Shown: positions 16,248 to 26,370 of the stretch, piece by piece
Position numbering within the stretch: the stretch's first letter is position 1
How the letters are laid out: every line of letters begins with the position of its first letter
Virus record (IMG/VR): IMGVR_UViG_3300046492_000277
Span: 1-26,370 of that record
From: a virus
Direction: 5' to 3' (one strand)
Length of the DNA stretch: 26,370 nucleotides
Translations under genes and position numbers: made by a program
Notes under the pieces: model-generated
Seen by the model: only the letters and a program-made list of their open reading frames with translations
Databases searched by the model: none
What the model was told of the DNA's origin: nothing

Positions 16248-18302
16248 ATGCTCTATTCAATTGAAGTCAAAGAAGCCGCTAAACGCCTCTATCTGCGCCG
16301 CTGCAAGCCGCGAGAGATTCAGGCCCAACTCAAGCTGCCGAACATCCGCATCGTTTATTACTGGATCGCTAAGGGCGGCTGGGACGAGATGCTGTCGGAC
16401 GAAGAACCGCTGACGGCGGTTGGTCGGCGAATCACCCTGATCCTGGAGAAAGCGGGCACCCTGACCAAAGGCGAACTGGACGAACTGGACCGGCTCACGA
16501 CCGTTCGCGATCGGCTGTTGAAGCAGTCCGCCAAACCGTTGCCAGCAACGATCAATGACGCTCCACCGGACAACCCAGGAGAGCGGCAGGGACAGCGCGG
16601 CGAACGCCGGGAGCGAGGCGACAAGGGCGGCAAGAAGCGCGAGAAGAAAGTAAAAAACGACGTCAGTGAACTGACCGAAGTGGACTTCCTCGACAAGTTC
16701 ATCAGCAAGATGTACGGCTACCAAAAAGAGCTATTCGCGGCCAAACAGAACCCGCTGACTTGCCGAATTCGGAACATCCTCAAAAGCCGCCAGGTGGGCC
16801 TGACGTACTACTTCGCTGGCGAAGCATTCATGGACGCTGTGCTCACCGGCGACAACCAGATTTTCCTGTCGGCCAGTCGCGCCCAGTCCGAAATTTTCCG
16901 AAGTTACATCATCGCGTTCGCACAGGAGTGGTTCGGCCTGGAGCTGACCGGCAACCCGATTGTGCTGAGCAAAGACGGCAAGCCCTGGGCTGAATTGCGT
17001 TTCCTCAGCACCAACAGCAGCACCGCGCAGGGTCACCATGGCCACGTCTACGTTGACGAATATTTCTGGATTCGTGACTTCGAAAAACTGAACACTGTGG
17101 CCAGTGCCATGGCCACCCATAAAAAGTGGCGTAAGACCTATTTTTCAACGCCCAGCGCCGTTTCGCACCAGGCCTACCCGTTCTGGACCGGCGAGAAATT
17201 CCGCAACAGCAAACGCAAGAACGCCAAGAATCCTTGGCCGAGTGAGACCCAGGCGGCAGCGGGCTCGCTGTGTCCGGACGGGCAATGGCGCAAGGTCATC
17301 ACCATTCTGGACGCCATTGCAGGCGGCTGCGATCTGTTCGACCTCGAGCAGTTGCAGCTGGAGTACGACGAGGACAAGTTTCAGCAGCTGTTCATGTGCA
17401 AATTCATCGACAGCACCATGAGCGCTTTTTCCCTGTCCGACCTGGAGCGCTGCTACTCCGACCTGTCGCTGTGGACCGACTACGACCCCGATGATCCGCG
17501 CCCATTCGGCAACAGCCCCGTGTGGATCGGCTACGACCCCAGCCGTACCCGCGACGACGCCAGTTGCGTGGTCGTTGCCCCGCCGCTGGAACCTGGTGCC
17601 AAGTTCAGGATTCTGGAAAAGCACAGTTGGCGTGGGCAGTCGTTTAAGTATCAGGCCGAGCAGGTCAAGAAACTTACCGAGCGTTTCAACGTGCAACACA
17701 TCGGCATCGATACCACCGGCATCGGCTACGGCGTGTTTGACCTGGTACGCGACTTCTACCCGCGTGCGACCTCGATTCACTACAGCCTCGAAACGAAAAA
17801 CACTCTGGTACTCAAAGCGCAGGACACGATTCAGGGCAGCCGGATCGAATGGGATGCCGGCTGGAACGACATCGCTCAGGCGTTCCTGACGATCAAGCGC
17901 GGCACCACGGGCGGCGGCCAAGTCACCTACAGCGCATCGCGCACCGACGCCTCGGGGCACGCTGATATCGCCTGGGCGATCATGCATGCCCTGGCCCACG
18001 AACCCCTCAACACCAACAAGCAGCGGCGCAGCCGCTACACACTCAGCGGATCAAGCACCAATGGGCAAACCAGCAAAAAACCAGCAGCACAAACAAGCAC
18101 CAGGTCCCATGCGCGCGTTTTCATTCGGTGCACCCGAACAGGTACTGAGCGAAAACATCGGGCAGTATCTGGGCGTGTTTGCCACGCACGACGGTCGAAT
18201 CTACACACCGCCGGTGTCGCGCCAGGGGCTGGCCAAACTGCTGCGCGCCAACGCACACCACGGCGCCATTCCCGGGTTCAAGCGCAACCTGTTACTGCGT
18301 GA
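16248..18302 (+). CDS. P: Terminase large subunit P (ATPase/nuclease), C-terminally extended
   Basis: The packaging motor, 684 residues from the ATG at 16248 (MLYSIEVKEAAKRLYLRRCK). An upstream in-frame ATG at 16194 is preceded by AGGAGG with no spacer, so the start is not certain. The N-terminus has a helix-turn-helix-like part (REIQAQLKLPNIRIVYYWIA). The ATPase has the P2-type motif KSRQVGLTYYF around residue 181 and Walker B VYVDE (Asp270, Glu271). The nuclease domain begins at IGYDPSRTRDDASCVVV (Asp430), with GIDTTGIGYGVFDLV later. The usual C-terminus (SGHADIAWAIMHALAHEPL) ends near residue 600, but no stop follows. The frame continues about 80 residues into the portal gene with an Arg-rich sequence that looks like an out-of-frame reading. 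Confidence 0.9.
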   Translation: MLYSIEVKEAAKRLYLRRCKPREIQAQLKLPNIRIVYYWIAKGGWDEMLSDEEPLTAVGRRITLILEKAGTLTKGELDELDRLTTVRDRLLKQSAKPLPATINDAPPDNPGERQGQRGERRERGDKGGKKREKKVKNDVSELTEVDFLDKFISKMYGYQKELFAAKQNPLTCRIRNILKSRQVGLTYYFAGEAFMDAVLTGDNQIFLSASRAQSEIFRSYIIAFAQEWFGLELTGNPIVLSKDGKPWAELRFLSTNSSTAQGHHGHVYVDEYFWIRDFEKLNTVASAMATHKKWRKTYFSTPSAVSHQAYPFWTGEKFRNSKRKNAKNPWPSETQAAAGSLCPDGQWRKVITILDAIAGGCDLFDLEQLQLEYDEDKFQQLFMCKFIDSTMSAFSLSDLERCYSDLSLWTDYDPDDPRPFGNSPVWIGYDPSRTRDDASCVVVAPPLEPGAKFRILEKHSWRGQSFKYQAEQVKKLTERFNVQHIGIDTTGIGYGVFDLVRDFYPRATSIHYSLETKNTLVLKAQDTIQGSRIEWDAGWNDIAQAFLTIKRGTTGGGQVTYSASRTDASGHADIAWAIMHALAHEPLNTNKQRRSRYTLSGSSTNGQTSKKPAAQTSTRSHARVFIRCTRTGTERKHRAVSGRVCHARRSNLHTAGVAPGAGQTAARQRTPRRHSRVQAQPVTA

Positions 18303-19068
18303 GTTCATCCCATCGGAGGGCTGCTCGATCACGACCATGGGCCGCGCCGGGCTCGACTTCATGGTGTTCGGCGAGGCTTATTTTCTGCGCAACCGCAACG
18401 CCTTCGGCCAGGTGCTAGAGATGGAGCACCTGCCGACGATCAACATGCGAGTCAAGGTGGATGGTGGTTTTGTGATGTTGCTGCCGGACGGCAAAGAAGT
18501 GGAGTTCGACCAGGACGAAATCGAGCACGTCATGAACTACGACGTGGAACAGAACATCTACGGCGTGCCTGACTACCTGGGCGGCATGCAGGCGCTGTTG
18601 CTCAACGAAGCCGCAACCCTGTTCCGCCGGCGCTACTACAGCAACGGGGCGCATGCGGGCTACATCTTCTACACCAACGACCCGAACCTGAGCGAAGACG
18701 ACGAGGACGAACTGAGAGCTCAGATCACCGCCAGCAAGGGTGTGGGTAACTTCCGCTCAATGTTCGTCAACATCCCGGGCGGTGACAAGGAGGCGATCCA
18801 GATCATTCCCGTGGGGGACTTTCAGGCCAAAGACGAGCTGGAGAAGGTGAAGAATATTACCCGTAACGACGTGATCGCCGCTTGGCGCATGAACCCGGCG
18901 CTGGCAGGCATCATCCCGGAAAACAGCGGCGGATTCGGCGATATCGAGAAGATCGATCGGGTGTACACCAGCAATGAGATTCGGCCGATTTGCCAGCTGT
19001 TCAACCAGCTTAACGACACGTTAAGGCAGGATCGATGGATTGGCTGGCGGGAGGCTCCCCCCACCTGA
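18061..19068 (+). CDS. Q: Portal protein Q
   Basis: A 335-residue P2 gpQ-family portal, starting at ATG 18061 (MGKPAKNQQHKQAPGPMRAF). Motifs shared with P2 gpQ are RAFSFGAPEQVL, RIYTPPVSRQGLAKLLRANA, HHGAIPGFKRNLLL, LDFMVFGEAYF, LLNEAATLFRRRYYSNGAHAG, KGVGNFRSMFVNIPGG and GGFGDIEKIDRVYTSNEI. Twelve copies should form the DNA entry vertex. The first 242 bases overlap the extended 3' end of gene P in another frame. The last 15 residues (QDRWIGWREAPPT end) lack the VIRF-type ending of P2 gpQ. The ribosome site is weak, so translation may be coupled to P. The order P then Q is as in P2. Confidence 0.93.
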   Translation: MGKPAKNQQHKQAPGPMRAFSFGAPEQVLSENIGQYLGVFATHDGRIYTPPVSRQGLAKLLRANAHHGAIPGFKRNLLLREFIPSEGCSITTMGRAGLDFMVFGEAYFLRNRNAFGQVLEMEHLPTINMRVKVDGGFVMLLPDGKEVEFDQDEIEHVMNYDVEQNIYGVPDYLGGMQALLLNEAATLFRRRYYSNGAHAGYIFYTNDPNLSEDDEDELRAQITASKGVGNFRSMFVNIPGGDKEAIQIIPVGDFQAKDELEKVKNITRNDVIAAWRMNPALAGIIPENSGGFGDIEKIDRVYTSNEIRPICQLFNQLNDTLRQDRWIGWREAPPT

Positions 19069-19160
19069 GCAATCCCTTTGATATAGGGGAGGGAAATAAG
19101 TAAAGCCCTACCCACTGTGGCAAAATAGTACCTTGTATGGAACCTTGGGGAAGGGGCGTT

Positions 19161-19421
19161 ATGCGGGTGTATTGCAAAGAGTGTGGCAGTAAAGGACGGA
19201 TTGCTTCGCGAGACGAGCTTTCAAAAGAGTTTGCCAAACTTTACTGCCAATGTGGTGATGTTGCTTGTGGTCACACGTGGGTGGCTAATCTCACTTTTTC
19301 TCACACCTTGAGCCCTTCTGCCCAATCTTGTGATCGCCTGGTATTCGATCGACTTCGCCACCTCACTCGCGCTGAACAACGTGAGCTATTCGATCAACTG
19401 GGTACTCAGCTCGCTTTATAG
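19161..19421 (+). CDS. ogr: Ogr/Delta-type zinc-finger late gene activator
   Basis: An 86-residue protein starting at ATG 19161 (MRVYCKECGSKGRIASRDEL), preceded by AAGGGG; a longer start at 19137 is less likely. Cysteines in C-x2-C (YCKEC) and C-x4-C (QCGDVACGHTW) arrangement, followed by VANLTFSHTLSPS, match P2 Ogr and P4 Delta, which bind upstream of late promoters and contact the RNA polymerase alpha subunit. The C-terminus (DRLVFDRLRHLTRAEQRELF) is an extra helix. In P2 ogr follows gene D at the far end of the tail operon; here it follows portal gene Q in the same direction. It is the likely activator of the two divergent late operons. Its stop overlaps a convergent ORF by 16 bases. Confidence 0.85.
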   Translation: MRVYCKECGSKGRIASRDELSKEFAKLYCQCGDVACGHTWVANLTFSHTLSPSAQSCDRLVFDRLRHLTRAEQRELFDQLGTQLAL

Positions 19422-19663
19422 TTTTTCAACTTAATCTCAAATTCGTTGAAATGCTTTATTACATCAGCGCTGATTTCCAAAAAACCATTTTTAGCGCGCT
19501 CAGATAGCTGAAGCTCTGAGGCTGACGCACCCATCAAAAATATGAACTTATTGCCAAGGCTGTGCGCCTCGTCAACTAGTTCTGCTTTTTTTGATTCGGC
19601 CTCAATCATTTCTATAACTTCCTGTTTGGCGGTTTTGAGGGAATGAAGTTTAGTTAGTGGCAT
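19406..19663 (-). CDS. Small coiled-coil protein of unknown function
   Basis: An 85-residue leftward ORF starting MPLTKLHSLKTAKQEVIEMI. I do not recognise it. It is Lys/Glu-rich and largely helical with heptads (EVIEMIEAESKKAELVDEAH, DVIKHFNEFEIKLKNYKAS). There is no signal peptide or zinc motif. Base composition is clearly more AT-rich than the surrounding late genes, suggesting a recent insertion (a moron-like gene) between the ogr gene and the non-coding region. No strong Shine-Dalgarno sequence is visible. It converges with ogr. The ORF could be real, but no homology can be cited from sight. Confidence 0.5.
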   Translation of the reverse strand: MPLTKLHSLKTAKQEVIEMIEAESKKAELVDEAHSLGNKFIFLMGASASELQLSERAKNGFLEISADVIKHFNEFEIKLKNYKAS

Positions 19664-19728
19664 TTTGGATCGTCAAGCGCTTTTTTAGTTCTTGTAAAAC
19701 TTTCAAAACTTGTCATTTTATTTTTATG

Positions 19729-19767
19729 GGGACCTTCTGGCACGCATCACGGGGTGCTTTAGGTCCC
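19729..19767. other. Nested hairpin without T-tract
   Basis: GGGACCT (19729-19735) pairs exactly with AGGTCCC (19761-19767), and inside GCAC (19740-19743) pairs with GTGC (19754-19757). CACGGG (19748-19753) could alternatively pair with CCCGTG (19765-19770), giving two mutually exclusive folds. No T-run follows on either strand, so it is not a standard terminator. It may be the leader of the leftward small ORF or part of a structured RNA. Confidence 0.4.
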
Positions 19768-19954
19768 GTGTGCAGGTGGCGCTAGAGGTGTGTATCGATG
19801 TGCTATTGCGATTCCAGTAGTACAAACAACTGATTAGCTAAATAGCGAAATAGCGAATATGTACGTATGTACATAAGTGAAAATATCCAAAGGTACACAG
19901 AGGATTTGAGCGCGTAAAACAAAGAAATGTTAAGGGTGCGCTTACGTTATGGGG

Positions 19955-20111
19955 GCTTCGATATAACGATACTGCACTGGATAATTGTGTAGCAGCTGCC
20001 AGCAGATTGAATAGCGACGCTTCGATATAACGGACGCACTTCCTATGTATTCACGCACTAGAAGACACCATTAATCCGCAAGGAATTTAATATCAGAAGT
20101 ACGGTATAACG
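19955..20111 (+). repeat. TATAACG box repeats
   Basis: The 14-mer GCTTCGATATAACG occurs exactly twice, at 19955-19968 and 20019-20032. A third related copy, ACGGTATAACG, ends at 20111. An inverted CGTTAT lies at 19945-19950, opposite the first ATAACG with a 12-base gap. The spacings (64 and 79 bases) are not helical-phase equal. Possible protein binding sites or tandem remnants. Confidence 0.6.
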
Positions 20112-20157
20112 AAATTATGCCTATAGAGTCGTAGCCTTCATGTGTTGGCTACGTACG

Positions 20158-20181
20158 AAAAAGGGCGCCTAAGAGGCGCCC
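20158..20181 (-). terminator. Intrinsic terminator of the early operon
   Basis: GGGCGCC (20163-20169) and GGCGCCC (20175-20181) form a perfect seven-base GC-rich stem with a five-base loop. Read leftward the stem is followed by five T residues (20162-20158). It lies 45 bases beyond the stop of the last early gene. A weaker T-rich tail (TTGATTT) on the other strand may let it stop rightward transcripts as well. Confidence 0.88.
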
Positions 20182-20225
20182 TTGATTTCAGGTATAGGAA
20201 TTTTAGCCGCTAAATGTTTCAGGCT

Positions 20226-20462
20226 TTACTTCGTAAGACCTTCAATTTTTATCACGCCGTATCGTCGGCGACCGTCAGCGGTTTCGAAAGCCGCGACCAC
20301 CTGCCCACCAGGCAAAGGTATTTGCACCAGGCCATTGCCAGTGTCGTGTTGAAGCAGTCGAGTCGCCTCTACCAAATGAAATTCACTTGGCAGCTCCAGT
20401 TGCTGGCGAGCCTGATGCTCCTGGTCGTCGGAAACGGCAATGAATTGTCTGTCGATCAGCAT
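20226..20462 (-). CDS. Hypothetical early protein
   Basis: A 78-residue protein starting at ATG 20460-20462 (MLIDRQFIAVSDDQEHQARQ), with AGGA nine bases upstream. The start overlaps the end of the preceding gene. It looks like a small soluble alpha/beta protein (FHLVEATRLLQHD, GLVQIPLPGGQVVAAFETAD, RRRYGVIKIEG). I recognise no family. It is the last gene of the leftward early operon, directly before the terminator. Position suggests an accessory role in replication or lysogeny control; function is unknown. Confidence 0.7.
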   Translation of the reverse strand: MLIDRQFIAVSDDQEHQARQQLELPSEFHLVEATRLLQHDTGNGLVQIPLPGGQVVAAFETADGRRRYGVIKIEGLTK

Positions 20463-20734
20463 AGGGTTGCATCCTGTGATTCCAAGGGTTTTGCGAGCAG
20501 CTGCGCGACTACGGCTGCATCGCAATCGGATAGGTCGCCCAGTGTGTGGGCCATTTCAGCCAGGCTTTCTAGGCGCTGGCGGTTGTCTGGGGTTTTATGA
20601 ACCAGGTAACCGATCAGCGCGGCACCGATCACTGCGGTGGCCAGTAATGGGCGTGGAGCCTTAATGGTGCTGCTGCGTTGTTCGGGCTGTGTGATAGCCT
20701 TGTGTTTGCTGCCGCTTGGGTGCTGTGCTTGCAT
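20456..20734 (-). CDS. Hypothetical single-pass membrane protein
   Basis: A 92-residue protein starting at ATG 20732-20734 (MQAQHPSGSKHKAITQPEQR), with GAGGAG upstream. One likely membrane helix at about residues 30-46 (LLATAVIGAALIGYLV) follows a polar N-terminus. The C-terminal 45 residues are soluble and helical (NRQRLESLAEMAHTLGDLSD, DAAVVAQLLAKPLESQ). The ribosome site and start are part of an 18-base sequence also found before the P-loop gene. No family recognised. It could act at the membrane during early infection. Confidence 0.7.
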   Translation of the reverse strand: MQAQHPSGSKHKAITQPEQRSSTIKAPRPLLATAVIGAALIGYLVHKTPDNRQRLESLAEMAHTLGDLSDCDAAVVAQLLAKPLESQDATLC

Positions 20735-20746
20735 GGTGTTGCTCCT
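20729..20746 (-). repeat. 18-base start-site repeat, copy 1
   Basis: Read leftward, AGGAGCAACACCATGCAA, which includes the ribosome site and ATG of the small membrane protein gene. The identical 18 bases occur at 21352-21369 before the P-loop gene. Confidence 0.85.
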
Positions 20747-20797
20747 CTTGTGGTGGTTGGTGTCGAGGAGGTGCGAACTCCTCGACACCGTCTCTTA

Positions 20798-21049
20798 TCA
20801 GGCTTGCCGCAACGGGCTTGCCGTGAATACCGGGCGCTGGTCACAACGCACCTCAAACAATCCCAAGTCATGACCGTCTACGTCTTGCATGTGTACGACG
20901 GTAATGAATGTCGGGGTGTCTTCCGGGTGATCCCTCCAGTGTGCGGCGGCTGCCAATTCGGCCAGGTCCTCGGCTGTGCGCTGTTCGACGTAGTCAGACG
21001 GCAGCGGAAGCTGACCCGGCAAGGTGTTGGCGCAGTAGCGAATAATCAT
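20798..21049 (-). CDS. Hypothetical early protein
   Basis: An 83-residue protein starting at ATG 21047-21049 (MIIRYCANTLPGQLPLPSDY), with GGGGAGAA upstream. It has a helix ending in AELAAAAHWRDHPEDTP, then strands FITVVHMQDVDGHDLGLFEV and a final VRCDQRPVFTASPLRQA. It is acidic and soluble with no visible motif. I do not recognise the family. It lies between the mini P-loop gene and a small membrane protein in the early operon, with short spacers and good ribosome sites. Confidence 0.72.
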   Translation of the reverse strand: MIIRYCANTLPGQLPLPSDYVEQRTAEDLAELAAAAHWRDHPEDTPTFITVVHMQDVDGHDLGLFEVRCDQRPVFTASPLRQA

Positions 21050-21063
21050 TGCGAGTTCTCCCC

Positions 21064-21357
21064 TCAGGTCTGGCGCACCAGGTGCACGACGAAATCAGAC
21101 GGAATCCCCGAGTGAATGCCCCGTGCTTTTAGCTCCATAACAGCCTGGATCTGGAACCGGGTGCAGTCGTCAGCGAGAAACTGCTTGTCACCGGCCATGG
21201 CCTTATCGGCAATTTGGTTGATGAAGAACGGAGTTGTGCAGTGTTCTCCGACCATGATTGGTGCCTCGATCCCTTGGCCTTTCAATTCGGTTTGGATGGC
21301 GCGCAGACGGGTGGTTTTGCCGGTGCCTTGGTCGCCGGTGATGACTCGTATTTGCAT
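21064..21357 (-). CDS. Mini P-loop NTPase-like protein
   Basis: A 97-residue protein starting at ATG 21355-21357 (MQIRVITGDQGTGKTTRLRA), with AGGAG upstream. Residues 8-16 are a clear Walker A motif (GDQGTGKTT). A Walker B-like FLADDC follows around residues 60-65. The protein is far shorter than typical AAA or RecA-type ATPases and holds little more than the nucleotide-binding core. It begins just beyond the repeat region that follows the primase/helicase gene. It might help load or regulate the helicase, or bind NTP for another purpose; this is inference. The C-terminus (GIPSDFVVHLVRQT) is a plain strand. Good coding appearance. Confidence 0.8.
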   Translation of the reverse strand: MQIRVITGDQGTGKTTRLRAIQTELKGQGIEAPIMVGEHCTTPFFINQIADKAMAGDKQFLADDCTRFQIQAVMELKARGIHSGIPSDFVVHLVRQT

Positions 21358-21369
21358 GGTGTTGCTCCT
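21352..21369 (-). repeat. 18-base start-site repeat, copy 2
   Basis: Exact copy of the sequence at 20729-20746, here spanning the ribosome site and ATG of the mini P-loop protein gene. The identity covers AGGAG, the spacer and the first codons. Confidence 0.85.
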
Positions 21370-21386
21370 TTTTTTGCTGGTTGAAT

Positions 21387-21435
21387 CGGGCGCCGCGCCC
21401 GAAATAATTCCGCGTGTGCCCGGGGCGTACCCCGG
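21387..21435. other. Two GC-rich hairpins upstream of the P-loop gene
   Basis: CGGGCG (21387-21392) pairs with CGCCCG (21396-21401). CCGGGG (21420-21425) pairs with CCCCGG (21430-21435). Neither has a T-tract in the leftward direction, so they would more likely attenuate or protect mRNA than end it. They lie between the repeat cluster and the mini P-loop gene. Confidence 0.5.
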
Positions 21436-21442
21436 AATATCC

Positions 21443-21750
21443 GGAACGGCTAAAAGTTGAAGGACGCTAGCCCACGGAATACGGGGCTTTCAGGGCGGTA
21501 GGTGCTTGGAACACCAAGCCGGAACATTGCAGAACAGGATTTGTTCAAAATCTGCTGTAGGCCTTGATTTACAAGGGCTAGCGCCGTGTTCCGGCAAATG
21601 CCTTTGGTGGAACACTTACAGAACAGGAAACAGAAAGATGTTCCGGTGTGATCCAGCGTGTTCCGGTCAGTGGTGATGCGGCGCTGTTGGTTATCTATCT
21701 GTTTTTTATAGATATTTTTCTTATAAATATTCATGTTCCAGATGTTCCGC
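21443..21750. repeat. GGAACA iteron-like cluster with AT-rich block (candidate replication origin)
   Basis: Nine GGAAC/GTTCC pentamers occur in 306 bases, at 21443, 21508, 21521, 21588, 21609, 21640, 21660, 21735 and 21744; fewer than one is expected by chance. Eight of them extend to GGAACA/TGTTCC. The 8-mer CCGGAACA is exact at 21519-21526 (+) and at 21587-21594, 21639-21646 and 21659-21666 (-), with one more at 21848-21855 inside the primase gene end. AGAACAGG appears twice (21531, 21620). Beside them, 21691-21734 is about 86 per cent A+T, a possible unwinding element. The stretch 21358-21829 carries no convincing gene. Iterons plus an AT-rich block next to a P4-alpha-like primase gene suggest the replication origin. 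Confidence 0.6.
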
Positions 21751-21829
21751 CTAACCATTGGCCACACACGCATTTCCTTAAAAACACTGGTTTGCCCCCG
21801 TACACGTCTTTTTATCCCCAGGACGTTCA

Positions 21830-24481
21830 TCAGGATTTGCTCCCCTTCCGGAACAGCCAGCAGTTGAGCGAGCGCTTCTCAATGACCGAGCGGACTTTGC
21901 GAGTCTCGACAAAGGTGTGTGAGGTGCTGAGTGGCAGTGCGCGGTGCAACTGAGTCGCGTGAATGACTTCCTGGCCAGCGAGACGACAGGCGTTGTGGAA
22001 GTGCTCGATGTTGATGGCGATCAGGCTTTTGTCAGCGCTGTGGTTGAGCGTTTCCTGAATGACTTCGCGATCGCCAATTTCATCGCTGATCGAAACCACT
22101 CTTTCATTGAGGTAGTGATAGATCTGCCAGAAGCGCCCAGCTGTTGGGTTCTCGGTGCTGACGCGCTGCTGCCGATCGATGGCGCGGCGCTCAATGTGCT
22201 TGATGACTTGTTCCAGGGCAGCGTCGTTCCAGTCCGGGAACAGCGCCTGTGTGGCTTTTGTGGCTGCCATCATCTGCGCATGGCAAAGCACGATCCGTTG
22301 GTGCTGAAGAACAGGGTTTGCTTGCAGGCGTTGCTCGTATTCTGGAAACGCATCGAAGTAACGCTGGAGCCAAGCTGACTCCTGCCCAATGCAATGCCCC
22401 AGGTATCCGGCTAATTGCTCGATGGGTAGGCTATTCAAACGAGTGGCGAGAACCTTCAAGGCAGGAGTGTGATGCGCCCTGTTCGCGTGAAAATGACTGA
22501 TGCGGGTCAGGATCGCCTCGGAGCCCTCAACGCTGGCGTTCTGAGCAATGCACAGAGCCGCGAGGAAAATCAGGCTGTCGGTGTCGTTGCTTGAGGACTT
22601 CACGCCGACCGTGCGAAGCGTGGCGTTGTGGTCAAACAGCGCTTTCCACTTTTCCCAGTTGTATTGACTGATTACCGTACGGCCCTGGGCGTCGACGGTC
22701 TGGCTGTCAGACTCAATCAGCACCACCGGAAAGTTACTGACCTGAGACAAAGCACGGGTCAGGCCGATGGCGCTGGCGCCGTCGCTGTTGGGCTTGATGC
22801 CTTCATAGTTGGAGCGACCTAGTAAACGCCACAGAAAACGCAGCAAGCTGGACTTGCCGGCGCCGGCATCGCCGGTCAGTTCCAGGAACGGCCAAGACTC
22901 CTGTTTGGTTCGGATCTGCTGCACGAACAGCGTCGCAGTCCACCACGACAACGATGCGAGTCCGTTCAGGTGATGCACCGCAAAGAAGTCGGAAAACCAG
23001 CTCGGGTCGAAGTCATTACCACGGATGATCGCCAGGCTATTGAGCGAGGTTTTCAGACCGATTTTTCCGACTTCAAGGTAGCCGTGGTCGTTGGCCAGGT
23101 ACTCACGCCCTTTGTGGTAGCCGAACTTCTGGAAGCAGTAGGTTTTGCTGGCCGCGTCGTAGCCGACGAAGGGCAGTGATCGGACAGTCAGAGCATTGTC
23201 CAACCACTTGCTGCGCAGCATGGCCAAGACCTTTTCCCCGCCTTCGAAGTTGCCTCCAGGTGTGCGCTCCAGCAGCGATTTGGCGAAGCTTCTCGGATCG
23301 CCGATCGAGTTCGGCGCCAGGGGCTCCTTGCAGTTCTGTGCTGCGTTGGGAAAGTTGAATTGAAAGAAGAACTGCTGGTCACCGCTGATCGCATCGCGCT
23401 GGATGTATTCGAAGCGCGGCACGCAGTTGGCCACCTGCTTGATGTCGCAGTATTTGTAGAAAAGCTGCTCGCGAGCGACCGCTTCGTCTTCCCGTGGTTT
23501 GTTCAGCTCATCGGAATTCACCTTGGCGGAGTAAAGGCGTTCGCCGAAGTCCAGCAGGAAGAAATTCAGCGGCTTCTTCTTGTGGAGCAGGTAGGCTTTT
23601 TTCGCAGGGCTCTCAGCGATAAAAATTCGGCCCTGGAAGTTCGCCTCCTGCATGAACTCATCATTCAACTGGCCGTCGCGGTACACATCGTCCCAATCGC
23701 GATCGTTGCCGGCGAGGGCCACCCATGCCAGTTCATCACGGGCAAGCAACTGGCCGCGGTACTTAGGAGTAACTGAGTGGCCGGCCTTGTCGTCGTCCAG
23801 GGCGATGATCCAGCGCACTTTCAGGCCCTTGTGCGCCTCGATGATGTCCCAAGGGAAGTTGTTGGCTGATATAGACGCGATAGCCTTGTAGCCAGCCAGG
23901 AATAACGCGATAGCGTGGAAGATCCCCTCTACGACGTAGACGGTGTCCCCTTGCTCGATGGACATGCCAGGCGGAACCCAGGCTCCGCCCTTGTAGGACA
24001 TCTTGGATTTGATGCCGGCTTTGTCCCCTCCATTGGCAGTGACCATCGTCGCGTCAATGATTCGCTCCCAGTAACCGTCACAGAGCTGGAAACGGACGGT
24101 ATCAGCCCACTGGCCATCCTTCATTTTGCGTCGACTCTGCTCGTACCAGCCTTTCATCTTGCTGATATCAAAGCCGCGATTACGCTGTAGGTAGGCGTCG
24201 GCCGTCGCGTTCGGATTTATCTCTGTACGCGGAAACCGCTCGCTGAGGTTTTCGAACAGGTGGCTGTAGCGCTCGCGAGTTTTCTCTTCGAACTGGCACT
24301 GGTTGAGGCGGTTGCACTTGAGTTGGTAAGGCTGCTTGCGGGCGATGTACAGCGTGCGTTCGCTACAGCCTGGGCAGACGCCCTTCTGAAAATACGTGCT
24401 GCCGATGTCTTTGAAGTCGAGGTCGTGGTCATGCTCCAGGGCGGCGACCACTTCCAGACGATAAATGTCTTCGAATTGCAT
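21830..24481 (-). CDS. P4-alpha-like primase/helicase
   Basis: An 883-residue replication protein starting MQFEDIYRLEVVAALEHDHD. A zinc-binding primase start is seen at Cys36, Cys39, Cys56 and Cys62 (C-x2-C, C-x5-C). A Toprim-type primase core has Glu185 (VYVVEG) and Asp229-231 (IIALDDDKAG). A helicase part has Walker A GDAGAGKSS at 537-545 and a likely Walker B around FPVVLIESD. This order (zinc, primase, SF3-like helicase) and length are those of the P4 alpha protein and related phage primase/helicases, which also bind origin iterons through a C-terminal domain. It replaces the rolling-circle initiator gpA of P2. It is the second gene of the leftward early operon, right after cox; an iteron-like cluster begins at its 3' end. 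Confidence 0.88.
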   Translation of the reverse strand: MQFEDIYRLEVVAALEHDHDLDFKDIGSTYFQKGVCPGCSERTLYIARKQPYQLKCNRLNQCQFEEKTRERYSHLFENLSERFPRTEINPNATADAYLQRNRGFDISKMKGWYEQSRRKMKDGQWADTVRFQLCDGYWERIIDATMVTANGGDKAGIKSKMSYKGGAWVPPGMSIEQGDTVYVVEGIFHAIALFLAGYKAIASISANNFPWDIIEAHKGLKVRWIIALDDDKAGHSVTPKYRGQLLARDELAWVALAGNDRDWDDVYRDGQLNDEFMQEANFQGRIFIAESPAKKAYLLHKKKPLNFFLLDFGERLYSAKVNSDELNKPREDEAVAREQLFYKYCDIKQVANCVPRFEYIQRDAISGDQQFFFQFNFPNAAQNCKEPLAPNSIGDPRSFAKSLLERTPGGNFEGGEKVLAMLRSKWLDNALTVRSLPFVGYDAASKTYCFQKFGYHKGREYLANDHGYLEVGKIGLKTSLNSLAIIRGNDFDPSWFSDFFAVHHLNGLASLSWWTATLFVQQIRTKQESWPFLELTGDAGAGKSSLLRFLWRLLGRSNYEGIKPNSDGASAIGLTRALSQVSNFPVVLIESDSQTVDAQGRTVISQYNWEKWKALFDHNATLRTVGVKSSSNDTDSLIFLAALCIAQNASVEGSEAILTRISHFHANRAHHTPALKVLATRLNSLPIEQLAGYLGHCIGQESAWLQRYFDAFPEYEQRLQANPVLQHQRIVLCHAQMMAATKATQALFPDWNDAALEQVIKHIERRAIDRQQRVSTENPTAGRFWQIYHYLNERVVSISDEIGDREVIQETLNHSADKSLIAINIEHFHNACRLAGQEVIHATQLHRALPLSTSHTFVETRKVRSVIEKRSLNCWLFRKGSKS

Positions 24482-24493
24482 TCCCCTGGCCCC

Positions 24494-24733
24494 TTACTGC
24501 TCGCCGGCCTTGGTTTTACTTTTTCCACCCCGGACACGCTCGGCTTGCTCCGTCGCCTCCATTGCCAGGTAAACCATATTGATGAAGACGGTGCCTTTCT
24601 TTTGGCCTGGCTCCTTCTCCCTGACCAGAATCATGCCTTGGTCTATTTTGTGACGCACAGAACGCTCCGAGAGCCCAGCACGACGCGCAAACTCATCTGG
24701 GGTCACGTATGGCGTGTCGATTACAACCTGCAT
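24494..24733 (-). CDS. cox: Cox-like regulator/excisionase
   Basis: A 79-residue protein starting MQVVIDTPYVTPDEFARRAG, with GGAGAA upstream. The winged-helix segment PYVTPDEFARRAGLSERSVRHKIDQGMILV and the later GTVFINMVYLAMEA line up by eye with P2 Cox (IPYQEFAKLIGKSTGAVRRM; GEYWVYLPAW). P2 Cox represses the lysogenic promoter and directs excisive recombination by the integrase. It is the first gene of the early operon, diverging from the C-like repressor, as in P2. The Lys-rich end (GGKSKTKAGEQ) is typical of small excisionases. Family call by recalled similarity; role known for P2. Confidence 0.82.
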   Translation of the reverse strand: MQVVIDTPYVTPDEFARRAGLSERSVRHKIDQGMILVREKEPGQKKGTVFINMVYLAMEATEQAERVRGGKSKTKAGEQ

Positions 24734-24750
24734 TTGGTATTCTCCGTGGG

Positions 24751-24756
24751 TATATA
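24751..24756 (-). promoter_or_regulatory. Putative early promoter -10 element
   Basis: Leftward TATATA at 24756-24751, 18 bases before the cox ATG. No good -35 consensus is seen at the right distance; the -35 zone coincides with the first operator (24766-24783), which fits a promoter blocked by the repressor. A rightward promoter for the repressor may use TGAAAA at 24760-24765 and TATCTT at 24783-24788. Confidence 0.45.
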
Positions 24757-24765
24757 TTCTGAAAA

Positions 24766-24783
24766 AGTTCCAGATATGGAACT
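24766..24783. promoter_or_regulatory. Operator 1 between cox and C
   Basis: AGTTCC and GGAACT flank a six-base centre (AGATAT), a perfect 6 + 6 dyad. It overlies the expected -35 of the leftward early promoter. Its centre is 23 bases from that of operator 2. Confidence 0.75.
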
Positions 24784-24789
24784 ATCTTG

Positions 24790-24805
24790 GTTCCATGCAT
24801 GGAAC
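24790..24805. promoter_or_regulatory. Operator 2 between cox and C
   Basis: GTTCCATGCATGGAAC is a perfect 16-base palindrome with the same GTTCC-N6-GGAAC form as operator 1. It lies just upstream of the chosen C start at 24823, so binding could also autoregulate C. An in-frame ATG (24799) lies inside it, which argues against that ATG being the start. Confidence 0.8.
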
Positions 24806-24822
24806 TTGTCAAGGGAGACATC

Positions 24823-25059
24823 GTGGAAATTCCAGCAAAGCTGAAGGCGATTAGGGCGAAGGAAGCGCTCACTCAAAATGAGTTTTGCGAGGTGATGGAA
24901 ATCAGCATCAGCAGCTACAAAAAATACGAGGCAGGTATCGCTGAAATGGGCGCGCCACCCATTTTCAAGATCGTCAACCACCCGCGTTTCAAGAAGTACA
25001 CCCTATGGTTGATGACTGGCGACGTAGCGCCAGAATGCGGCCAGATCAGCCCCCTTTAA
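24823..25059 (+). CDS. C: P2 C-like lysogeny repressor
   Basis: A 78-residue XRE-type repressor starting at GTG 24823 (MEIPAKLKAIRAKEALTQNE). AAGGGAG lies at the right spacing; earlier in-frame starts at 24787 (TTG) and 24799 (ATG) fall in or before the operator. The helix-turn-helix is about residues 16-40 (LTQNEFCEVMEISISSYKKY). The C-terminus FKKYTLWLMTGDVAPECGQI is strikingly close to P2 C (KYTLWFMTNQIAPESGQIAP). P2 C is a 99-residue dimer that keeps the early promoter shut. The partner site is the operator pair immediately upstream. It lies between cox and int exactly as in P2. Confidence 0.88.
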   Translation: MEIPAKLKAIRAKEALTQNEFCEVMEISISSYKKYEAGIAEMGAPPIFKIVNHPRFKKYTLWLMTGDVAPECGQISPL

Positions 25060-25114
25060 CCTTCGACAAGGATTGTCCTGTGAGCCTTTTTCCCATCCGA
25101 CTTGTGTGCGGCTT

Positions 25115-26272
25115 ATGTCATTAAAAAAGCTTGAGTCTGGTGAATGGCTCGTGGACTGTCGGCCGGATGGCCGCGCAGGCGCACGCGTTCGGAAAAAATT
25201 CCGAACTAAAAACGAAGCGATGGTTTTCGAGCGGCGCTTGATGGGGGACGGTGCCAAAGGCGAGTTTGAAAAGAAGCCCAAAAAAGACGAACGCCGGCTT
25301 TCAGATCTCGTTTCTCTATGGTTCAAGCTCCATGGCTGCCACCTCAAGAGAGGTGAGAAATGCCTAGCCTTCCTTCAGCGCATGGTCAAAAACTTGGGTG
25401 ATCCTTGGGCTACCGACTTCACCGCGAGTAGCTTCACCCAATACCGTTCAGATCGGCTTGCCGGTAAATGGGGCCGCGCAAAAGTAGACGAGGCTGGCAA
25501 GCTGAACGGTGCCACAGCGCCAATCACAGCGAACACGGCAAACCACGAACTGAGCTACCTACGTGCCGTGTTCAACGAGTTGGAGCGTTTGGGCGAGTGG
25601 TCAGGTGAAAATCCGTTGTCCAAGGTCCGGGCCTTGAAGTTCGATCAAAGCGAGATGTCCTATCTGTCCAGCGATCAAATATCGCTGTTGCTGTCGCGAC
25701 TGGACAAAGAAGAGTCAGATGTCAGCGCCATTGCACGCGTCTGCCTATCAACCGGCGCACGGTGGGCAGAAGCGGCCAATCTGGAGCCGGGGCAAGTGAG
25801 GGATGGTCGTATTCACTTCACTCGAACAAAGTCAGCCAAAAACCGCACCGTTCCGATCGCGCCGGAACTTGAGCATCTGCTGACAGAATCGATGCCGTTC
25901 AAGTCGTCCTATCGGGAAACCTGGTACACCTTTGCCGATGTCGTAGATGAATTGGACCTTGGGTTACCAAAAGGTCAGGTGACGCACGTTCTGCGTCACA
26001 CCTTCGCCAGTCACTACATGATGAACGGCGGGGACATCCTCACCTTGCAGCGGGTGCTTGGACATTCAACGCTGGAAATGACTATCCGTTATGCCCACTT
26101 CAGCCCCGGCCACCTTGCGGAGGTGGTCAATTTGAACCCCCTCGCTGGCGACCGTGGACACTTTGTGGACATTACACAAAGAGACGTGGCGAAAAACCAA
26201 CTCAAAAAAACCAACCAAACCCTTTTAAACAAAGGGCTTCACCCTCTTAAAAACAAAAGGAACACACGATGA
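25115..26272 (+). CDS. int: P2-like tyrosine integrase
   Basis: A 385-residue site-specific recombinase. The ATG 25115 start (MSLKKLESGEWLVDCRPDGR) matches the beginning of P2 Int (MAIKKLDDGRYEVDIRPTGR); neither it nor the TTG at 25073 has a good ribosome site. The arm-binding N-terminus and core-binding domain (INTANHELSYLRAVFNE-like) precede the catalytic part. Catalytic residues: Arg216 (TGARWAEA), His291 and Arg294 (HVLRH), His317 (LGHST) and Tyr326 (RYAHF). About 45 residues after the tyrosine helix (NPLAGDRGHF onward, Lys/Asn-rich) have no P2 counterpart. The stop codon TGA overlaps the ATG of the chromosomal gene (ATGA), and putative arm sites lie within the gene end. Confidence 0.93.
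   Translation: MSLKKLESGEWLVDCRPDGRAGARVRKKFRTKNEAMVFERRLMGDGAKGEFEKKPKKDERRLSDLVSLWFKLHGCHLKRGEKCLAFLQRMVKNLGDPWATDFTASSFTQYRSDRLAGKWGRAKVDEAGKLNGATAPITANTANHELSYLRAVFNELERLGEWSGENPLSKVRALKFDQSEMSYLSSDQISLLLSRLDKEESDVSAIARVCLSTGARWAEAANLEPGQVRDGRIHFTRTKSAKNRTVPIAPELEHLLTESMPFKSSYRETWYTFADVVDELDLGLPKGQVTHVLRHTFASHYMMNGGDILTLQRVLGHSTLEMTIRYAHFSPGHLAEVVNLNPLAGDRGHFVDITQRDVAKNQLKKTNQTLLNKGLHPLKNKRNTR
26153..26171 (+). promoter_or_regulatory. Two direct repeats resembling integrase arm sites
   Basis: CGTGGACA (26153-26160) and TGTGGACA (26164-26171) are direct repeats one helical turn (11 bases) apart. From memory, the P2 Int arm-site consensus is TGTGGACA, so the second copy is exact. They lie at the 3' end of int, where the attP arm should be. 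Confidence 0.65.
26161..26268. other. Probable attachment-site region
   Basis: This stretch joins the phage to the chromosome. It contains a perfect 7-base inverted repeat CTTTGTG/CACAAAG (26161-26181, seven-base loop) and CCCTTT/AAAGGG (26220-26236), either of which could be a core-type integrase site. The A-rich tail before the host start contains AAAAGGA, the host ribosome site. The exact crossover core cannot be fixed without the other prophage end. Confidence 0.5.
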
Positions 26273-26370
26273 GCGACCTGATTTCCTACCATCTCGAAGA
26301 CGGTATCGCGACCCTGACCTTGAGCAATGGCAAGGTCAATGCCATCTCTCCGGACGTGATTGCTGCGTTT
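26269..26370 (+). CDS. Chromosomal enoyl-CoA hydratase/crotonase family gene, partial
   Basis: The first 34 codons are visible: MSDLISYHLEDGIATLTLSN, then GKVNAISPDVIAAF. This is the N-terminal strand pair of the crotonase fold (D-G-I-A-T-L-T-L-S, then N-A-I), well known in Pseudomonas enoyl-CoA hydratases of fatty-acid or amino-acid breakdown. The ATG overlaps the integrase stop (ATGA), with AAAAGGA seven bases upstream. It marks the host side of the prophage junction. Its native promoter has probably been displaced by integration, so it may now depend on transcription from the prophage end. The substrate cannot be told from this fragment. Confidence 0.88.
   Translation, partial: MSDLISYHLEDGIATLTLSNGKVNAISPDVIAAF

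Follow-up and report, generated by a model that had tools for sequence, protein, structure and literature searches.

Does the cluster of short repeats lying directly beyond the 3′ end of a primase-helicase gene in a P2-like Pseudomonas phage serve as that phage's replication origin, and is the protein encoded beside the repeats the one that reads them? The question is raised by IMG/VR record IMGVR_UViG_3300046492_000277, a virus fragment of 26,370 bases with a P2-like Pseudomonas phage gene layout, analysed here at full length and called the window below. A sequence-only reading had picked out GGAACA-type repeats at 21443-21855, next to the gene for an 883-residue protein that it called P4-alpha-like, as a candidate origin. 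On computational grounds, the array is very probably the origin of the phage or the initiator-binding core of that origin. The best reading is a single-protein primase-helicase-initiator with an iteron origin directly 3′ of its own gene, as in Staphylococcus aureus pathogenicity islands (SaPIs) and phage-inducible chromosomal islands (PICIs), and like crr of phage P4. What was computed is a conserved array, a template of site positions, motif switching that accompanies the C-terminal tip of the protein, and a predicted fold.

The repeat cluster is real. Counted on both strands, 21443-21855 contains 12 GAACA, 10 GGAAC, 9 GGAACA and five copies of CCGGAACA, the last including one within the primase gene end, while 1000 dinucleotide-preserving shuffles of the same interval reached maxima of 6, 5, 3 and 2, respectively. 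All five copies of CCGGAACA in the window lie in this interval, against 1.1 expected for the whole window. The A+T-rich block and the gene-free stretch described in the sequence-only reading also hold: the best 40 bases (21691-21730) are 87.5% A+T, and the gap from the primase stop to the next same-strand gene, whose start is at 21357, spans 21358-21829 and contains only open reading frames judged spurious. The array occupies 79-397 bp beyond the primase stop and reaches past 21443, with the degenerate copies CCGGAACG and CCGGAATA at the last two positions of a conserved template described below. Iterons stand on both sides of the A+T block, a pair at 21734-21750 and the other sites at 21432-21666. 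The features are as follows.

21432..21750: candidate replication origin, formed by the iteron array with its A+T-rich block, after the primase stop and before the next gene; conserved across ~100 homologues
21432..21439, plus strand: degenerate iteron CCGGAATA, outer-pair position
21441..21448, plus strand: degenerate iteron CCGGAACG, outer-pair position
21506..21513, plus strand: iteron CTTGGAACA core, with GGAACA at 21508-21513
21519..21526, plus strand: iteron CCGGAACA
21529..21536, plus strand: degenerate iteron GCAGAACA, template position
21587..21594, minus strand: iteron CCGGAACA
21607..21614, plus strand: iteron GTGGAACA
21618..21625, plus strand: degenerate iteron ACAGAACA, close to a template position
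21639..21646, minus strand: iteron CCGGAACA
21659..21666, minus strand: iteron CCGGAACA
21691..21730: A+T-rich block (87.5% A+T), probable unwinding element
21734..21741, minus strand: iteron CTGGAACA, 9 bp from the GCGGAACA site
21743..21750, minus strand: iteron GCGGAACA
21848..21855, plus strand: iteron CCGGAACA, inside the primase gene 3′ end

Is the array tied to the neighbouring gene? About 100 loci, mostly from Pseudomonas and viral contigs, were gathered by similarity to the 883-residue protein. Each of the 21 first-round homologues (78-98% identity) carries 9-15 copies of GGAACA in the 660 bases beyond the primase stop. The sequence-only reading had named close homologues lacking the repeats as the observation that would count against it; these were looked for, and an iteron array was found at about +75 to +390 bp after the stop in every examined homologue of at least 53% primase identity. 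Conservation thus strongly supports a putative iteron origin linked to the primase beside it. The intragenic copy, equivalent to 21848-21855, is present in 14 of the 67 GGAACA-class loci.

The wider set of homologues was searched past the primase stop for whichever 6- or 7-mers were enriched, and the iteron word proved to differ by subclade: GGAACA (as CCGGAACA), TGGAAGG, TGGAATG and, in one phage, TGGTATG. Weaker arrays of mixed TGGAATG/TGAACTA occur in L059-L061, L064, L073, L154 and L155, where de novo enrichment is weak and the arrays were recognised by motif and template positions. Three members at 36-41% identity have arrays of TGGGAACA, AAGGTAAT and TTAACA at the equivalent place. The sharing of GAACA with the P4 iteron GGTGAACAG, which had been offered as a link to P4, is not a constant of the family, other members using TGGAAGG or TGGAATG.

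The positions and strands of the sites largely persist across these motif switches. Ten of 11 sites of the TGGAAGG array of L056 match those of the TGGAATG array of L049, and 10 of 11 match those of the CCGGAACA array of L076; none of 3000 sets of shuffled spacings and strands did as well as either match. In the window, the template positions are partly filled by degenerate copies (CAGAACA, CCGGAACG, CCGGAATA). The template holds for most pairs, not every pair, because the match is weak or not significant in two comparisons with larger indels (phi3 with L049, L100 with L076) and for the window's sparse exact sites. Adjacent sites on one strand mostly lie 9, 10 or 11 bp from each other, roughly a single turn of the helix.

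If the word changes and the layout stays, what in the protein changes with the word? Every column in an alignment of 97 proteins was tested against iteron class, the mixed TGGAATG/TGAACTA group being counted as TGGAATG. Column 864 alone predicts class without error (97/97): Arg in 67 of 67 GGAACA loci, His in 14 of 14 GGAAGG loci, Tyr in 15 of 15 GGAATG and mixed loci, and Trp in the single GGTATG locus. Next come column 869, with 6 errors, and column 842, with 9. All three fall within a predicted winged helix, in which 842 opens the recognition helix and 864 belongs to the wing. The distant members fit this link, with Arg at the 864 position for GGGAACA (L099), Arg for TTAACA (L101) and Leu for GGTAAT (L100). 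On a tree of residues 1-830, both iteron class and residue 864 change 5 times; on a tree of residues 830-883, class changes 4 times, which is the minimum. Tyr with GGAATG, and likewise His with GGAAGG, are each present in separated clades, so that either convergence occurred or tip and origin were transferred together, and either links the tip to the array.

A recent exchange appears to be preserved in L043. Over residues 1-820 it is 98.8-99.6% identical to L044-L049 and L098, and of its 9 private residues 7 lie in 839-881, within the last 45. At the DNA level, identity holds at about 98% as far as codon ~833; beyond it, across tip and origin, it is mostly 76-90%, where L044 and L049 keep 93-98%. 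The iterons of L043 are CATACCAG, those of its sisters mostly CATTCCAG. The simplest reading of these sequences is that recombination replaced the helix-wing tip and the origin as one cassette; convergent mutation was set aside, since the spacer DNA is as divergent as the iterons and identity falls abruptly. With the origin adjoining the part of the gene that codes for its reader, a single crossover can carry the two together.

It is tempting to propose that wing residue 864 and its neighbours set which of at least four iteron words is read, and that phages switch specificity by swapping the last ~45 codons together with the origin cassette, possibly escaping cross-reaction with co-resident replicons. 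The code at 864 is a correlation between protein and iteron sequences, and we lean slightly towards this proposal. Pseudomonas aeruginosa PA7 has two prophages with this primase (L150, L151), both of the GGAAGG class; equal iteron class is thus no bar to two prophages in one lysogen.

What kind of protein would read the array? The 883-residue product matches the phrog_1139 (DNA primase) profile over residues 7-880, i.e., its full length (E 1.2e-217), with Toprim_2 above cut-off and Toprim_3 also matched. The predicted layout is a zinc ribbon and DnaG-type TOPRIM domain (~1-290), an AAA+ helicase (~300-775) and a winged helix (~779-880). The AlphaFold model has a mean predicted local distance difference test score of 86.8, or 92.1 for the C-terminal domain alone, in which helix 842-851 and a wing hairpin (856-864/871-878) are predicted. 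Residues 83-289 of the full model match DnaG catalytic cores (Z up to 13.7), and its best Protein Data Bank (PDB) matches over residues ~300-883 are Cch of the staphylococcal cassette SCCmec (5dgk, Z 22.2) and SaPIBov1 Rep (8tch, Z 22.0). By prediction, the protein joins a DnaG-type TOPRIM primase to a helicase like SaPIbov1 Rep and SCCmec Cch, unlike the D5 helicase of P4 alpha. The fold resembles self-loading initiator helicases, which we count in favour of an origin. The relevant features are these.

21830..24481, minus strand: gene for the 883-residue putative primase-helicase-initiator (phrog_1139, Toprim_2/Toprim_3, AlphaFold model)
21839..21973, minus strand: predicted winged-helix part, residues 837-881 (recognition helix 842-851, wing 856-878)
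21890-21892: codon of Arg864, the candidate class-determining residue, in the wing

DNA binding, oligomerisation, melting, priming and origin activity we infer, and the steps after DNA recognition are modelled on SaPI Rep, Cch and P4 alpha. The protein would dock on the ~8-bp iterons through its C-terminal winged helices, and the helicase would assemble on the array as one ring or two. The A+T-rich block at 21691-21730 would then melt, the AAA+ part may unwind the DNA as a SaPI-Rep/MCM-like helicase, and the TOPRIM domain would lay down primers for a host polymerase to extend. Such a primase-helicase initiator would stand in for the rolling-circle gpA of P2. In its favour, the window record has no match to Phage_GPA (PF05840), the P2 gpA family, although the record is an incomplete fragment and the absence is a weak point.

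Several observations weigh against an origin read by this protein. No array was seen in the DNA scanned from homologues at or below 35% identity (37 viral-contig loci as well as Dobby, Smp131 and others), and iterons are therefore not universal in phrog_1139. GC skew gave no origin signal in the analysis. Folded alone, the C-terminal domain has no confident PDB match, the best being the relaxosome accessory protein of pCW3 (Z 5.6), with PriRep1 at Z 4.0; the P4 origin-binding domain is not among the fold matches listed for it, an absence that carries no weight. The independent events behind the 864 code are far fewer than 97, about 5 changes on the tree, because class and residue are both inherited.

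Most of the primase family consists of these array-less homologues, from L102 onward together with Dobby (L027) and Smp131 (L028); at the position of residue 864 they commonly have Asn. Elsewhere among the distant loci, Pseudomonas phage UFJF_PfPro (L025, ~11069), whose primase is 30% identical, has 10 copies of CTGACA in a 400-base stretch some 3.4 kb beyond the primase gene, possibly an unrelated origin or an integrase arm array. Escherichia phage ESSI2_ev239 (L026, ~1828) has five copies of CGTCCACA adjoining its integrase gene, perhaps integrase arm sites.

Could the array serve the same protein without being the place where replication starts? P4 offers the precedent, its crr sitting 46-345 bp beyond the alpha stop and apart from ori1, several kb away, so the array might be a crr-like enhancer or a copy-number control or incompatibility site, with the start elsewhere. 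We consider this unlikely: a second array was found neither in the window nor in the 9-12 kb around the relatives, and the A+T-rich block lies inside this one.

Less likely still is that the repeats act as operators for a regulator of transcription, for instance the C repressor or Cox. The idea draws on two 16-bp palindromes with TGGAAC half-sites, GTTCCAGATATGGAAC and GTTCCATGCATGGAAC, between cox and C at 24767-24805. These vary independently of iteron class, the GGAATG-class L049 retaining GTTCCAAGCTTGGAAC and L062 having GATCCTATATAGGATC, and for this they were rejected as part of the iteron system. Moreover, iteron class tracks the primase tip, and the array lies beyond the primase gene, within the ~470 bp that precede the next gene. 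The palindromes, which are different in relatives, are likely C-repressor operators. As for chance or a compositional artefact, GGAAC across the whole window is indeed no commoner than expected (60 observed, 58.6 expected), but the local density far above shuffles speaks against that reading and the conservation in ~100 loci with class switching already refutes it; we give it practically no credence.

The genome around the putative origin is that of an autonomous phage. Profile matches identify the following genes.

17986-19068: portal gene
24494-24733, minus strand: Cox-like gene
24787-25059: C-type repressor gene
25073-26272: integrase gene

Among named phages, those nearest by primase are PaBSM-2607-JFK, at 62% identity, and phi3, at 57%; both belong to the Peduoviridae, and the relatives' records carry Peduoviridae annotation with portal, terminase and capsid genes. 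A megablast of window 19000-26370 against phage records gave no match. The stretch 19422-20200, which separates the portal side from the early region, is A+T-richer with few convincing genes; the G+C content of 19001-20000 is 45%, against 59% for the whole window. In phi3 (L024), a reverse transcriptase gene at 1071-2756, possibly defence cargo, adjoins the integrase.

Iteron replicons pose the question of why initiators and their cognate iterons keep matching as both evolve. In the present family, ~100 natural pairs in several motif classes, on a largely fixed template, with one candidate residue and the fresh L043 swap, would make the recognition code testable with one small domain. For phages such as phi3, in whose record no origin is annotated at this place, the array also supplies a putative origin coordinate. 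A satellite-type origin, as in SaPIs and PICIs and P4 crr, would now be placed in autonomous P2-like phages, which bears on the ancestry of satellite replicons.

How, then, does this locus compare with known systems? The sequence-only reading did not recognise it as a described origin, which is only partly right: we found no description of this origin in the open-access literature, and an iteron origin directly 3′ of rep is the described SaPI/PICI arrangement. SaPI Rep uses its C-terminal domain to recognise iterons that directly follow its own gene (PMC7581432), and in the pri-rep-ori modules of Gram-negative PICIs (e.g., EcCICFT073) the origin directly adjoins the 3′ end of the initiator gene and has iterons on either side of an A+T-rich region (PMC6092414). 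The window is alike in its array immediately 3′ to the putative initiator gene, in iteron sets on either side of an A+T-rich region and, by prediction only, in a self-loading AAA+ helicase fold with a C-terminal DNA-binding domain; the helicase and C-terminal regions share a predicted fold with SaPIbov1 Rep and SCCmec Cch (Z 22.0 and 22.2). It differs in having a DnaG-type TOPRIM fused at the N-terminus, whereas SaPIbov1 uses a primase of the archaeo-eukaryotic (AEP) type. Rep and Cch belong to the DUF927 family, and no Pfam DUF927 match was obtained at E 0.01 in 35 members of the present family. The carriers also differ: satellites there, and here autonomous P2-like phages that encode portal, terminase and capsid themselves.

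P4 alpha combines a TOPRIM primase, a helicase and a C-terminal winged helix in one protein (PMC4234260), as the window protein is predicted to do; crr, just past the alpha stop, is a positional parallel to the array, and GGTGAACAG has GAACA in common with the window iterons. The label P4-alpha-like is apt for function and the TOPRIM primase and fails for the helicase half: D5_N, Pox_D5 and DUF5906, present in alpha, were not found by Pfam domain search in the window protein (DUF5906 matched weakly in 2 of 35 family members), and hhalign aligns alpha over the TOPRIM region only (residues 124-307, probability 91%). The spacing of P4 ori1 (10, 11, 22, 43, 10), set against the family's 10, 11, 21, ~58, 10, agreed no better than shuffled spacings did in simulation, whichever the orientation. 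With P2, the phage shares its family by structural genes and the cox/integrase layout; it differs in initiation, which in P2 depends on the rolling-circle gpA and here would depend on a primase-helicase initiator.
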